From: SAR202 cluster bacterium
GTDB taxonomy: Bacteria; Chloroflexota; Dehalococcoidia; Lucifugimonadales; Lucifugimonadaceae
Reading direction: 5' to 3'
Assembly (NCBI GenBank): GCA_008373165.1
Contig: RQOU01000122.1
Location: 1-55,615, forward strand
DNA length: 55,615 nt
A program made the position numbers and the translations under genes. Shown one piece after another: positions 5,833-41,274 of the stretch. Numbering within the stretch: position 1 is the first letter of the stretch; each line of letters starts with the position of its first letter. The notes under the pieces were generated by a model. The model saw nothing but the letters and a program-made list of their open reading frames with translations. It was not told the DNA's origin and searched no databases.

Positions 5833-7119
5833 ATGATTGATTCAACAGTAATAGAAGTACGCTCGGGTAATGGAGGTCATGGAATGGTCTCTTTTATAAG
5901 AGAGGCTCTTTTACCTCGTGGTGGACCAGGTGGTGGTGATGGAGGACATGGTGGCAACATTGTGCTAGTTGCTGATTCTTCAATTAACACACTTACAAAA
6001 TTTCATTGGCAACCACATTTCATTGCAAGAAATGGTTCAAATGGTCAAGGGCATAATAAAAATGGAGCTAATGGTGAAACTGTTGAAGTTTCTGTACCAG
6101 TAGGTACAGAAGTTTGGGTTTGGGAAGACAGTAAAGATAAGGAGTTAATAGGTGAACTTATTCATGAGGGGGATCAAATAATTGTTGCTCAAGGAGGAAG
6201 AGGGGGCTGGGGAAATGCTCATTTTGTAAGTGCTACTCATCAAGAACCTCTCCTGGCTGAAGCTGGAGCGGATGGTGAAGTTCGTCGCATACGCCTGAAT
6301 CTTAAACTTTTGGCAGATATAGGTCTTATCGGTATGCCTAATGCTGGAAAATCCAGCATATTAACTGCAATTAGTGCCGCTCGACCGAAAATTGCTGATT
6401 ATCCATTTACCACGATTGAACCTGTTTTAGGAGTTGTAAATTACAGGCATAAAAGTTTCGTGGCTGTAGATATTCCAGGATTAATAAAAGGAGCCCATCA
6501 AGGTGTAGGTTTAGGGGATGAATTTTTAAAACATATACAAAGAACTCGTGTTCTTGTACATGTTGTAGATGGTAGTGAAAATAACATTGTTGAACGAATA
6601 ATAAGTATTAATGATGAAATATCACGTTTTGATGCCGAACTTTCTAAAAAGCCTCAAATACTTGTTATTAATAAATTTGATCTGGACGAAGTTTCAGTCT
6701 TGGCAAGCGAAATTACAGAATCAGTTGAATCTGTTAAAGGCTTACATTCAAAAATCATATTTGTTTCAGCTGCAACATATGCAGGTATAGACGAACTTAA
6801 ACATGCTATGTCTGATTATTTAGAGCAAAAACATCAAGAAAAACCAGCGTTTGCAGTTTTAAATAACGACGCTGTCATAATAAAACCTAAGGTAAAAAAA
6901 CCTGAAAAAATAATTGTGCGTAATCAAAATGGTTCATGGCGTATAGTTCATCAAAAAGCTGTTCGTTTGGCTCGAGGTAGTAATCTTGAAACCTGGGAAG
7001 CTCGGATTCAATTTCAACACCGATTAGAACAGTTAAAAGTAACCAAAGCACTGCGTGATGCCGGTATTGAAATCGGTGACACGGTTATGGTCGGAGATTG
7101 GGAATTTAACTGGGATTAA
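5833..7119 (+). CDS. obgE: GTPase ObgE/CgtA
   Basis: Essential ribosome-associated GTPase of 50S assembly and stress response. The N-terminal glycine-rich Obg fold is clear (RGGPGGGDGGHGGNIVLV, residues ~32-49; GGRGGWGNAHF at ~120). The G domain has P-loop GMPNAGKSS (~168), switch DYPFTTIEPVLGVV, DIPGLIKGAHQGVGLGDEF and NKFD. A C-terminal OCT domain of about 75 residues ends the protein (RLEQLKVTKALRDAGIEIGDTV). Length 428 is normal. It heads an obgE-nadD-pyrE series on the plus strand; nadD starts one base after the obgE stop codon. The ATG at 5833 overlaps the end of a DnaA-box-like site. Confidence 0.97.
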   Translation: MIDSTVIEVRSGNGGHGMVSFIREALLPRGGPGGGDGGHGGNIVLVADSSINTLTKFHWQPHFIARNGSNGQGHNKNGANGETVEVSVPVGTEVWVWEDSKDKELIGELIHEGDQIIVAQGGRGGWGNAHFVSATHQEPLLAEAGADGEVRRIRLNLKLLADIGLIGMPNAGKSSILTAISAARPKIADYPFTTIEPVLGVVNYRHKSFVAVDIPGLIKGAHQGVGLGDEFLKHIQRTRVLVHVVDGSENNIVERIISINDEISRFDAELSKKPQILVINKFDLDEVSVLASEITESVESVKGLHSKIIFVSAATYAGIDELKHAMSDYLEQKHQEKPAFAVLNNDAVIIKPKVKKPEKIIVRNQNGSWRIVHQKAVRLARGSNLETWEARIQFQHRLEQLKVTKALRDAGIEIGDTVMVGDWEFNWD

Positions 7120-38433: not shown

Positions 38434-38860
38434 TTTTTTGTGTTTTTGAGGGAAATTTTTTGAGCAGAAGCCAAAATATCACAATAAGGACTGATCCGAA
38501 AATATCCGCTACGACGTCAATGGCCTCAGATGCACGGCCTTCTATGCTCGATTGGTGCATTTCGTCCAGAATCCCGTACGTCAAGGCTACAAATATCGTT
38601 AAATAGGCTGTCAGTGGTTCGGAAACCAATCGTGACAAGACAAGCGTGCGGAGAACGAATACGCTTAGCACCATGAACAGTCCGATATGAACTAGCGAAT
38701 TGGCAAATGGCAACCATGTAACGATGTTTCTGGTGCTGTCGAAGTCTTTGGCTGGCATGTCTGACAACGTGTAAATGAGAGCCATCCACCCGATGGTCAA
38801 GGACCCCCATAGCCAGGGTTGGTCAACATGTTTTATAGAGAGTTTTCCTAGTTGAACCAT
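38414..38860 (-). CDS. VanZ-like membrane protein
   Basis: A 148-residue membrane protein with four hydrophobic segments (LWGSLTIGWMALIYTLSD, LVHIGLFMVLSVFVLRTL, PLTAYLTIFVALTYGILDEM, IDVVADIFGSVLIVIFWLLL). The DEMHQSSIEGRASEAIDVVA region matches the VanZ signature (DExxQ...GR...DvxxN/D). VanZ-type proteins are small membrane proteins linked in some bacteria to glycopeptide resistance; most have no known role. I use the ATG at 38860, leaving a 13-base overlap with the upstream mutarotase gene; the upstream alternative at 38896 overlaps more. Confidence 0.8.
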   Translation of the reverse strand: MVQLGKLSIKHVDQPWLWGSLTIGWMALIYTLSDMPAKDFDSTRNIVTWLPFANSLVHIGLFMVLSVFVLRTLVLSRLVSEPLTAYLTIFVALTYGILDEMHQSSIEGRASEAIDVVADIFGSVLIVIFWLLLKKFPSKTQKNGNQRS

Positions 38861-39192
38861 TGTGAATCGAATGCTAGCGACATTGGGCACCACCAATCGG
38901 TTTCTGTTGCTTCAGGGACTTTTTGTTGGAAAGTAGACATTAGATCGTTCCATTCTTCAGCTCGCTTTGATTCTGTGTAGCCCTGGAAATCTCTACGAGG
39001 ATCGAATTCGTCTGGAACCGTGCAATACATGAATAGGTGGTTGCCGCTTCGGAAAATCTCCATTCGTTCAATTCCGATTCCTTTTAGTGCGTCAATAACT
39101 TCTGGCCAGACGTTGCGATGGTATTCCTCGTATTTGGCAATTATTTCGGGGTCATCTTTTAGATCCAGCACCTGAGCTATTGATTTTGACAT
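38848..39192 (-). CDS. L-rhamnose mutarotase-like protein (first copy)
   Basis: A 114-residue single-domain protein of the RhaM/RhaU (L-rhamnose mutarotase) family: LKDDPEIIAKYEEYHRNVWPEVIDAL, IERMEIFRSGNHLFMYCTV, and a C-terminal WWCPM. The ExYxxxHxxxWPE pattern is diagnostic. It would interconvert alpha and beta anomers of a 6-deoxyhexose or a similar sugar. The ATG at 39192 is preceded by GGAGAG and beats the ATG 15 bases upstream. A second family member is encoded divergently at 39.3 kb. It overlaps the vanZ-like gene slightly. Confidence 0.8.
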   Translation of the reverse strand: MSKSIAQVLDLKDDPEIIAKYEEYHRNVWPEVIDALKGIGIERMEIFRSGNHLFMYCTVPDEFDPRRDFQGYTESKRAEEWNDLMSTFQQKVPEATETDWWCPMSLAFDSQWFN

Positions 39193-39316
39193 TTGTTTTC
39201 TCTCCACTTCAAAAGTGATGGGTGTGTTGTATTAGGCTGATTTCGATCGGCGCATGCCCTACACTCTGCAGCATATGAAATATTGGCCAATTGTAAGCCT
39301 GTAAAGGATGAATGTT

Positions 39317-39640
39317 ATGCAACGTGTGGGATTCGAGATGAAAATCCACCCCGAAATGGTAGAAGAGTACAAACAGCGTCACGATGATATATGGCCTGAA
39401 ATGTCAGCCGCTCTGGTCCGTACGGGATGGCGAAACTATACGATTTTCTTTAAAGAAGACGGGACACTATTCGGATACGTTGAATGTGAAGATTCATTTG
39501 AAGTGTCACTGGACGGAATGTCTAGGGAGGAAGTGAATCAGAAATGGCAAGACGACATGTCACCTTTTTTTCAACTTCCCAAAGGGGCTCATCCTGATAA
39601 AAACATGATCCAATGGCGAGAAGTTTTTCATGCCGATTAG
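39317..39640 (+). CDS. L-rhamnose mutarotase-like protein (second copy)
   Basis: A 107-residue protein of the same family: MQRVGFEMKIHPEMVEEYKQ, RHDDIWPEMSAALVRTGWRN and YTIFFKEDGTLFGYVEC, closer to E. coli RhaM than the first copy. It lies back to back with the first copy, so the two share a 124-bp intergenic region. I use the ATG at 39317 because it aligns with the E. coli start and has AAGGA about nine bases upstream; an earlier ATG at 39308 is too close to that site. No rhamnose transport or kinase gene is adjacent. Confidence 0.82.
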   Translation: MQRVGFEMKIHPEMVEEYKQRHDDIWPEMSAALVRTGWRNYTIFFKEDGTLFGYVECEDSFEVSLDGMSREEVNQKWQDDMSPFFQLPKGAHPDKNMIQWREVFHAD

Positions 39641-40706: not shown

Positions 40707-40728
40707 TATGGCATTATAGGAGTCGAAA

Positions 40729-41274
40729 ATGGCAGAAGAAAAATCATTCCAAGTCTTAGATCCGACAGCAACGCCGTCTGTAGCTACTGCTGGCATGGCT
40801 GATCGGCCCAATTCTCTTGCGGGTATGCGCATTGGACTCTTGCGCAATGATAAATTGAACTCAGAATCACTTTTGGATGCTATTTATGATGTTCTCTCAG
40901 AACGTTTTGAATTCGCAAACGCGTATCGAGTAAATAAAGGTGATGCATCTCGTCCAGCAGATCCTGATTTTCTATCTGATTTTTCTAATGAAGTTGATGT
41001 TGCACTCCTGGCAAATGGGGACTGAGGAAGCTGTTCGTCGTCCAGTGTGTACGACTCACTCAAGCTAGAAGCACTAGGTGTACCTGCGATCGCAATTTGT
41101 ACCGAGCCATTTGAATCCGGCGCTCAAGCTATGGCGAATCTGGGTGGAATACCGGACTATCCATTTGTAATAATTCAGCATCCGATTGGCAGTCTAACAC
41201 CTGAACAAATCAGAGAACGAGCTATTGAAGCTGCACCGCAGATCATACAATCTTTGATAGCTCGTAGAGTGTAG
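40729..41274 (+). CDS. UGSC-family selenoprotein (TGA at 41023-41025 read as selenocysteine)
   Basis: The frame opens at an ATG with AGGAG seven bases upstream. At codon 99 it meets TGA, then continues open for 82 more codons to TAG at 41272. Read through, the junction is ANGD-U-GSCSSSSVYDSLKLE. Sec-Gly-Ser-Cys is the defining motif of UGSC-family (seleno)proteins, and the sequence on both sides (LLRNDKLNSESLLDAI before; VPAIAICTEPF, IIQHPIGSLTPEQ after) keeps the family pattern. The UxxC arrangement suggests thiol/selenol redox chemistry; substrate unknown. Without readthrough it would be a 98-residue fragment. The selenocysteine machinery (selA, selB, selC, selD) is not in this window. The full protein is 181 residues. 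Confidence 0.88.
41029..41066 (+). promoter_or_regulatory. Candidate bacterial SECIS hairpin after the UGA codon
   Basis: Just after the in-frame TGA, GTCGT (41037-41041) can pair with ACGAC (41051-41055) around a 9-base loop. The loop begins 16 bases after the TGA, near the short end of the spacing known for bacterial SECIS elements. A lower AGCT/AGCT pairing (41029-41032 with 41063-41066) could extend it. A shifted register, TCGT (41035-41038) with ACGA (41051-41054), puts a G in the second loop position, as preferred by SelB. The fold was done by eye. Confidence 0.4.

Follow-up and report, generated by a model that had tools for sequence, protein, structure and literature searches.

Selenoproteins of the UGSC family are among the most common in seawater: the GOS survey counts 255 genes (PMC2398784), and the family makes up 8.2% of marine selenoprotein genes (PMC9402790). 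The sequence-only reading of the DNA studied here called their biochemical function undescribed, and the literature searched, 18 years after the family's description, indeed gives none. Among the closest described systems are GrdB of glycine reductase and PrdB of D-proline reductase. The selenocysteine (Sec) of GrdB-type proteins is believed to attack, as a nucleophile, the carbon adjacent to a carboxylate, the leaving group being an amine or, as proposed, fluoride (PMC10838667). Most of what is known of such chemistry comes from anaerobic fermenters of amino acids, along with the proposed defluorination of fluoroacetate (PMC10838667), and glycine reductase uses thioredoxin (PMC10298544). Three papers mention both UGSC and GrdB, and in the passages concerned they treat them as separate families.

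The window, by which we mean the whole 55,615-nucleotide stretch of SAR202 cluster bacterium DNA analysed, carries a gene that, judged by curated profiles, is a further member of the known UGSC selenoprotein family (Table 1). Its frame runs from the ATG at 40729 to a TAG at 41272-41274 and holds a single UGA, codon 99. The read-through protein scores 180.5 bits against Pfam PF24696 (UGSC; E 3.9e-53, residues 8-176, cut-off 25 bits) and 139.8 bits against NCBIfam NF041046 (UGSC_fam, cut-off 125 bits), with matches covering both sides of the UGA. Since the first spans residues 8-176 and the second lies above its cut-off, the two halves are parts of a single conserved family protein. The sequence-only reading had described an in-frame TGA followed at once by Gly-Ser-Cys and a Shine-Dalgarno site ahead of the ATG, and both are there: the motif is GDUGSC, in a frame of 181 residues, and the site reads AGGAG. 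Its further 82 codons after Gly-Ser-Cys need a correction; the count of 82 is right, as the total after the UGA with Gly-Ser-Cys included. It also foresaw that standard calling would split the gene, and an ordinary ORF list does yield a 98-aa ORF and a separate GTG-started 75-aa ORF. The public record offers a similar case in the UGSC gene of Acidovorax sp. T1 plasmid p2-T1, which is labelled a short 'hypothetical protein' while its frame runs on past the UGA. This plasmid is a conjugative IncP plasmid, and its UGA-containing gene (locus L269, about 5992-6700) extends into the start of a partner domain of the kind discussed below.

Table 1. Features of the UGSC locus, with positions counted along the window.
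Feature	Position	Strand	Remarks
RhaM-type L-rhamnose mutarotase gene	38848-39207	-	26.5 bits; NCBIfam equivalog cut-off 99.6
RhaM-type L-rhamnose mutarotase gene	39308-39640	+	70.4 bits; NCBIfam equivalog cut-off 99.6
Partner gene, 345 aa	39669..40706	+	Stops 22 nt short of the UGSC start codon; homologous to a UGSC-fused domain elsewhere
Shine-Dalgarno AGGAG	40718..40722	+	6 nt 5' of the ATG
UGSC-family selenoprotein gene	40729..41274	+	181 aa including Sec99; UGA-as-Sec translation, profile matches
In-frame UGA, Sec99 of the GDUGSC motif	41023..41025	+	UGA in 80/80 loci; Cys in plasmid homologues
Cys102, second residue of the UxxC pair	41032..41034	+	Invariant across the diverse alignment
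Bacterial SECIS-type hairpin within the CDS	41037..41055	+	Apical loop GUG; pair 41042-41050 mismatched; family covariation

We propose that the UGSC gene and the partner gene probably encode the two subunits of a thioredoxin-recycled reductase, in which the selenolate would attack a small carboxylate-like substrate on the partner. One line of evidence is a kinship with GrdB and PrdB. The GrdB model TIGR01917 matches 19 of 24 diverse UGSC members (best E 7.7e-7), and the PrdB model TIGR04483 matches 13 of them (best E 4.5e-4). Aligned by hhalign with Chloroflexota GrdB-type proteins, several of which have UGSC or UGTC at the Sec site, the UGSC profile scores 44.5 (P 2.7e-8, probability 94%) with the two Sec positions in register; none of 100 column-shuffled profiles scored above 21.3, and reversed rows gave 9.1. 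Its score against a PrdB-like set is lower, at 25.9. GrdB and PrdB match each other far more strongly (P 4.9e-37) than UGSC matches either, so UGSC is an outlying branch and not a GrdB. Taken alone, the protein encoded in the window reaches 11 bits against GrdB (E 0.14, cut-off 602) and 13.8 bits against PrdB (E 0.029, cut-off 300); being so far below both cut-offs, it is kin to these proteins and not a member of either family. The comparison of profiles suggests that the UGSC family is a divergent GrdB/PrdB-type Sec domain, a kinship that rests on the family and not on the single protein. Several SAR202 genomes (loci L081-L090 and L235) also encode PrdB-like selenoproteins with UP[VLN]C motifs; in one (G014, a single contig), such a gene lies about 34 kb from the UGSC gene.

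A less favoured explanation, which we judge unlikely, is that UGSC is an ordinary thioredoxin-like thiol/selenol oxidoreductase, reducing disulfides, peroxides or sulfoxides, with the partner as a client or accessory. Zhang and Gladyshev supposed a Trx-like fold in 2008, and the relevant passage of their GOS paper calls it likely (PMC2398784); the UxxC motif and the operons with thioredoxin reductase described below would suit it. The closest sequence kin are nevertheless GrdB and PrdB, and Pfam and NCBIfam scans returned no thioredoxin family. The AlphaFold model, built on a 51-sequence alignment (pLDDT 88, pTM 0.82), alternates strands and helices, with strand 91-94 followed by Sec99 and then helix 100-115; the beta-alpha-beta-alpha-beta-beta-alpha order of a thioredoxin fold does not appear in it. 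Foldseek and VIA comparisons of this model return flavodoxin, PurE, EF-Tu/GTPase folds and a chain of the MCR activation complex (8s7v_H, VIA Z 10.2), rows that support no more than the description 'Rossmann-like', and searches of PDB sequences with the UGSC and partner profiles found no relative. The model leads us to infer a Rossmann-like fold for the UGSC subunit, in which Sec99 and Cys102 lie where a helix begins. In Arthrobacter, the UGSC protein (L273, 5998-6813) is extended at its C-terminus by a segment that weakly resembles the C-terminal part of NifU and has a CxxC motif.

Thioredoxin is also where gene context bears on the two-subunit reductase. Of 48 wide loci (40 from Chloroflexota and eight from plasmids), 8 have a trxB gene next to the UGSC pair and on its strand; they come from Actinomycetota, Alphaproteobacteria and Chloroflexota. 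The order is trxB-trxA-partner-UGSC in Arthrobacter and partner-UGSC-trxB in Roseovarius; in Neorhizobium, a fused partner/UGSC pair is followed by trxB, and five Chloroflexota loci (L276, L305, L306, L310 and L311) have trxB beside the pair. For the five or six TrxB proteins tested, the best family was thioredoxin-disulfide reductase, with two of them above the cut-off. No adjacent trxB was found in the SAR202 loci; the genome that contains the window encodes a single TrxR-like protein at another place, which scores under the curated cut-off. Against the proposed reductase, other thioredoxin-dependent chemistry, such as peroxide or disulfide reduction, predicts the same gene context.

The neighbourhoods also offer hints of a substrate. 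On plasmids, the pair is accompanied by CoA transferases, TRAP or tricarboxylate transporters, phosphosulfolactate synthase and isocitrate lyase/PEP mutase, a context that points to small carboxylates. Within the window, its neighbours are RhaM mutarotases, a glyoxalase and an amidohydrolase distantly like L-fuconolactonase; the RhaM and amidohydrolase genes point to sugar acids, which are used by cultured SAR202 (PMC10444878). Neither context is proof, and the amidohydrolase, the glyoxalase and the two RhaM genes are not used here to name a substrate because they are conserved in only part of the loci. The two RhaM-type genes stand head to head just 5' of the UGSC operon. In a haloarchaeon as well as in an actinobacterium (L267 and L273), a gene annotated as phosphosulfolactate synthase occurs near the pair, which possibly hints at sulfonate chemistry.

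The partner is a near-obligate companion of UGSC. A member of its family is present in the fetched DNA of 77 of 80 UGSC loci, mostly directly upstream on the same strand, and it is the sole broadly conserved neighbour across the loci compared; all eight plasmid loci, the archaeal ones included, carry it. Across 400 Chloroflexota genomes, UGSC and the partner are each found in 42, and 41 genomes have both; in the one genome with UGSC only, the gene lies near a contig end. In many genomes, the two form one fused chain. One example is a second UGSC copy in the window's own genome (contig C32; L058, 1640-3553, minus strand), which has the motif ADUGTC and a partner domain in which Ala replaces the Cys82 conserved in the single-gene form. 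A UGSC fusion with a domain named 'Unknown_1' appears in the section of the 2008 paper on this family (Zhang and Gladyshev, PMC2398784), and, as far as that section describes it, the partner is in all likelihood this domain. The partner in the window matches no family in Pfam or NCBIfam scans. Its profile shows no homology to GrdB and none to GrdE (hhalign P 0.45, probability 0.13%), although it may be related to the latter in structure.

What the partner does is the point on which another reading turns, namely that the pair is a lyase or hydratase whose catalytic part is the partner, with a distant class I fumarase-like fold, and whose Sec subunit does no more than bind, deliver or protect a metal or cofactor. 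A fold search with the partner does return weak rows for fumarase, chorismate mutase and tubulin-like proteins, none of them counted as evidence here; Foldseek likens it faintly to fumarase alpha domains and Toblerone-fold amide hydrolases, and VIA gives a Z of 5.0 for the M. jannaschii fumarase subunit. The TM-scores are nonetheless about 0.3 or less, the Z values near background and no PDB match convincing. The partner also lacks a conserved trio of Cys for an Fe-S cluster, Cys82 being Ala in the fused copy L058 and Cys181 being replaced in Nitrospinota, and the thioredoxin reductase operons would be left unexplained. We regard a lyase as quite unlikely.

Any selenium chemistry of the pair presupposes that the UGA is read as Sec, and by every genomic test available the gene encodes a selenoprotein. 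The same genome (1.94 Mb, 85% complete), searched for selA, selB, selC and selD, contains selB, a selA truncated where its contig stops, a selD that has an in-frame UGA of its own, and a tRNA-Sec whose anticodon is UCA. When GTDB genomes were scanned with the closer of two alignments (A2; the diverse alignment A1 had no sufficiently conserved stretch), 80 UGSC loci emerged in other genomes, mostly of SAR202/Dehalococcoidia but also of Nitrospinota, Alphaproteobacteria and a single bin that bears the label Acidobacteria. At the same codon, UGA is present in all 80, so the TGA at 41023-41025 is not a sequencing error, and the protein is conserved on both sides of it among these relatives from several phyla. 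Six plasmid homologues, from the haloarchaea Natrinema, Halorientalis and Halalkalicoccus and from Arthrobacter, Roseovarius and Embleya, have Cys at the Sec position, in the motif GDCGSC (ADCGSC in Embleya); with Cys forms in the same motif, the Sec99 position shows the usual Sec/Cys interchange of an active site. A tree of Sec and Cys forms shows four changes across many weak forks, on which the number of Sec/Cys switches is not countable and is compatible with one origin. SelB is present in 38 of the 42 UGSC genomes, a co-occurrence that lends weak support because 311 of the 400 Chloroflexota have it. Together, the family cut-offs, the Sec machinery, the CGSC homologues and the conserved UGA vindicate the sequence-only reading in its identification of a UGSC-family selenoprotein.

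Some relatives depart from this pattern. A 98%-complete Chloroflexota genome (G398, contig C35, L198) has a UGA-containing fused UGSC gene and no SelB match at E 1e-60, which would reflect either an assembly gap, a divergent SelB or a stranded selenoprotein gene. Three Chloroflexota paralogues (L200, L201 and L202) are without Sec, one having Cys without the GSC, one Thr and one Met near the Sec position; judging from these residues, some UGSC copies seem to have lost selenol chemistry.

Comparison of its members shows that the family also retains a covarying hairpin just 3' of the UGA, weak in the gene studied here. The hairpin lies about 15-33 nt downstream, with a loop that is mostly GUN. 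Among 49 distinct sequences, six of its eight pairs have changed on both sides, and double-changed cells number 25 against 4.3 in shuffles (0/500), with much lower values in slid controls; the rows are related sequences, so that the P values are non-independent and overstate significance. When the encoded protein is kept constant, the 45-mer after the UGA is on average more stable in 64 Sec genes than its synonymous versions, with a mean z of -1.20 and negative values in 55 of them. The mean for six Cys genes in the same test is close to zero; one haloarchaeal Cys gene folds into a similar hairpin. The hairpin in the window has a predicted energy of -8.7 kcal/mol (z +0.13 against synonymous versions) and keeps the core stem with one mismatch, and folding of its post-UGA region as a single sequence gives no signal (z -0.21), the hairpin being visible only by family comparison. 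Apart from this unremarkable hairpin, little favours the view that the UGA is a true stop, or the gene decaying, with the downstream frame a remnant. We consider it extremely improbable, given the UGA that all 80 relatives have at this very codon, the conserved sequence before and after it, the Sec machinery and the Cys forms of the motif.

For the two-subunit reductase, a catalytic cycle can be sketched. The partner subunit would hold the substrate, which is probably a small carboxylate or resembles a sugar acid, and the selenolate of Sec99 would attack it, taking or displacing a group. Cys102 would then resolve the selenium adduct to a selenenylsulfide, which thioredoxin and thioredoxin reductase would reduce, regenerating the enzyme. 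The pyruvoyl/Schiff-base step proposed for glycine reductase is not expected here, since the partner is unrelated in sequence to GrdE. More tentatively, the pair may be a further GrdB/PrdB-type branch of selenium reductases, one that operates not in anaerobic fermenters but in marine bacteria that live freely. It would use thioredoxin to remove, reductively, a group adjacent to a carboxylate and would dispense with a pyruvoyl cofactor; we offer this as a possibility on which the balance leans somewhat to the negative. As an enzyme system, the pair is marked by the evidence as a variant in its own right among the glycine/proline reductase selenoproteins, one that has its own partner.

The kinship with GrdB and PrdB, the near-obligate partner and the operons with thioredoxin reductase make UGSC an enzyme that can be put to the test. 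The cultured SAR202 strain Candidatus Lucifugimonas marina JH1073 (L157) carries a close homologue of the partner-UGSC operon, and proteomics and selenium dependence are therefore directly testable. Beyond the sequence-only reading, the analysis adds the partner gene, its fusion with UGSC, the GrdB/PrdB relationship and the thioredoxin reductase operons.

Among known systems, the nearest is the UGSC family itself (Zhang and Gladyshev 2008; NF041046, PF24696), whose cut-offs, UGSC motif and Sec, found in most members, the protein shares, along with the same kind of fusion to an unknown domain as in the relevant part of the 2008 report (PMC2398784). That part of the report differs in having neither a partner operon nor a GrdB/PrdB link and in suggesting a Trx-like fold, whereas here a Rossmann-like fold is predicted for the family, which is linked with a partner gene and, in other taxa, also with thioredoxin reductase. 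PrdB (TIGR04483) and the PrdB-like marine selenoproteins, the latter found in related SAR202 genomes, have a UxxC at the equivalent place, but their motif is UP.C rather than the UG[ST]C of UGSC, and the profile score is below that for GrdB (25.9 versus 44.5). GrdB (TIGR01917/PF07355) is about 430 residues long against 181 for UGSC, which scores far below its cut-off, and comparison of profiles shows no homology between GrdE and the partner encoded upstream of UGSC. Like UGSC, however, GrdB has its Sec in a U-G-S/T-C motif between a strand and a helix, with an E..G-I-P motif after it and a second enzyme gene directly upstream, and thioredoxin is the reductant in the glycine reductase reaction, as proposed for UGSC.
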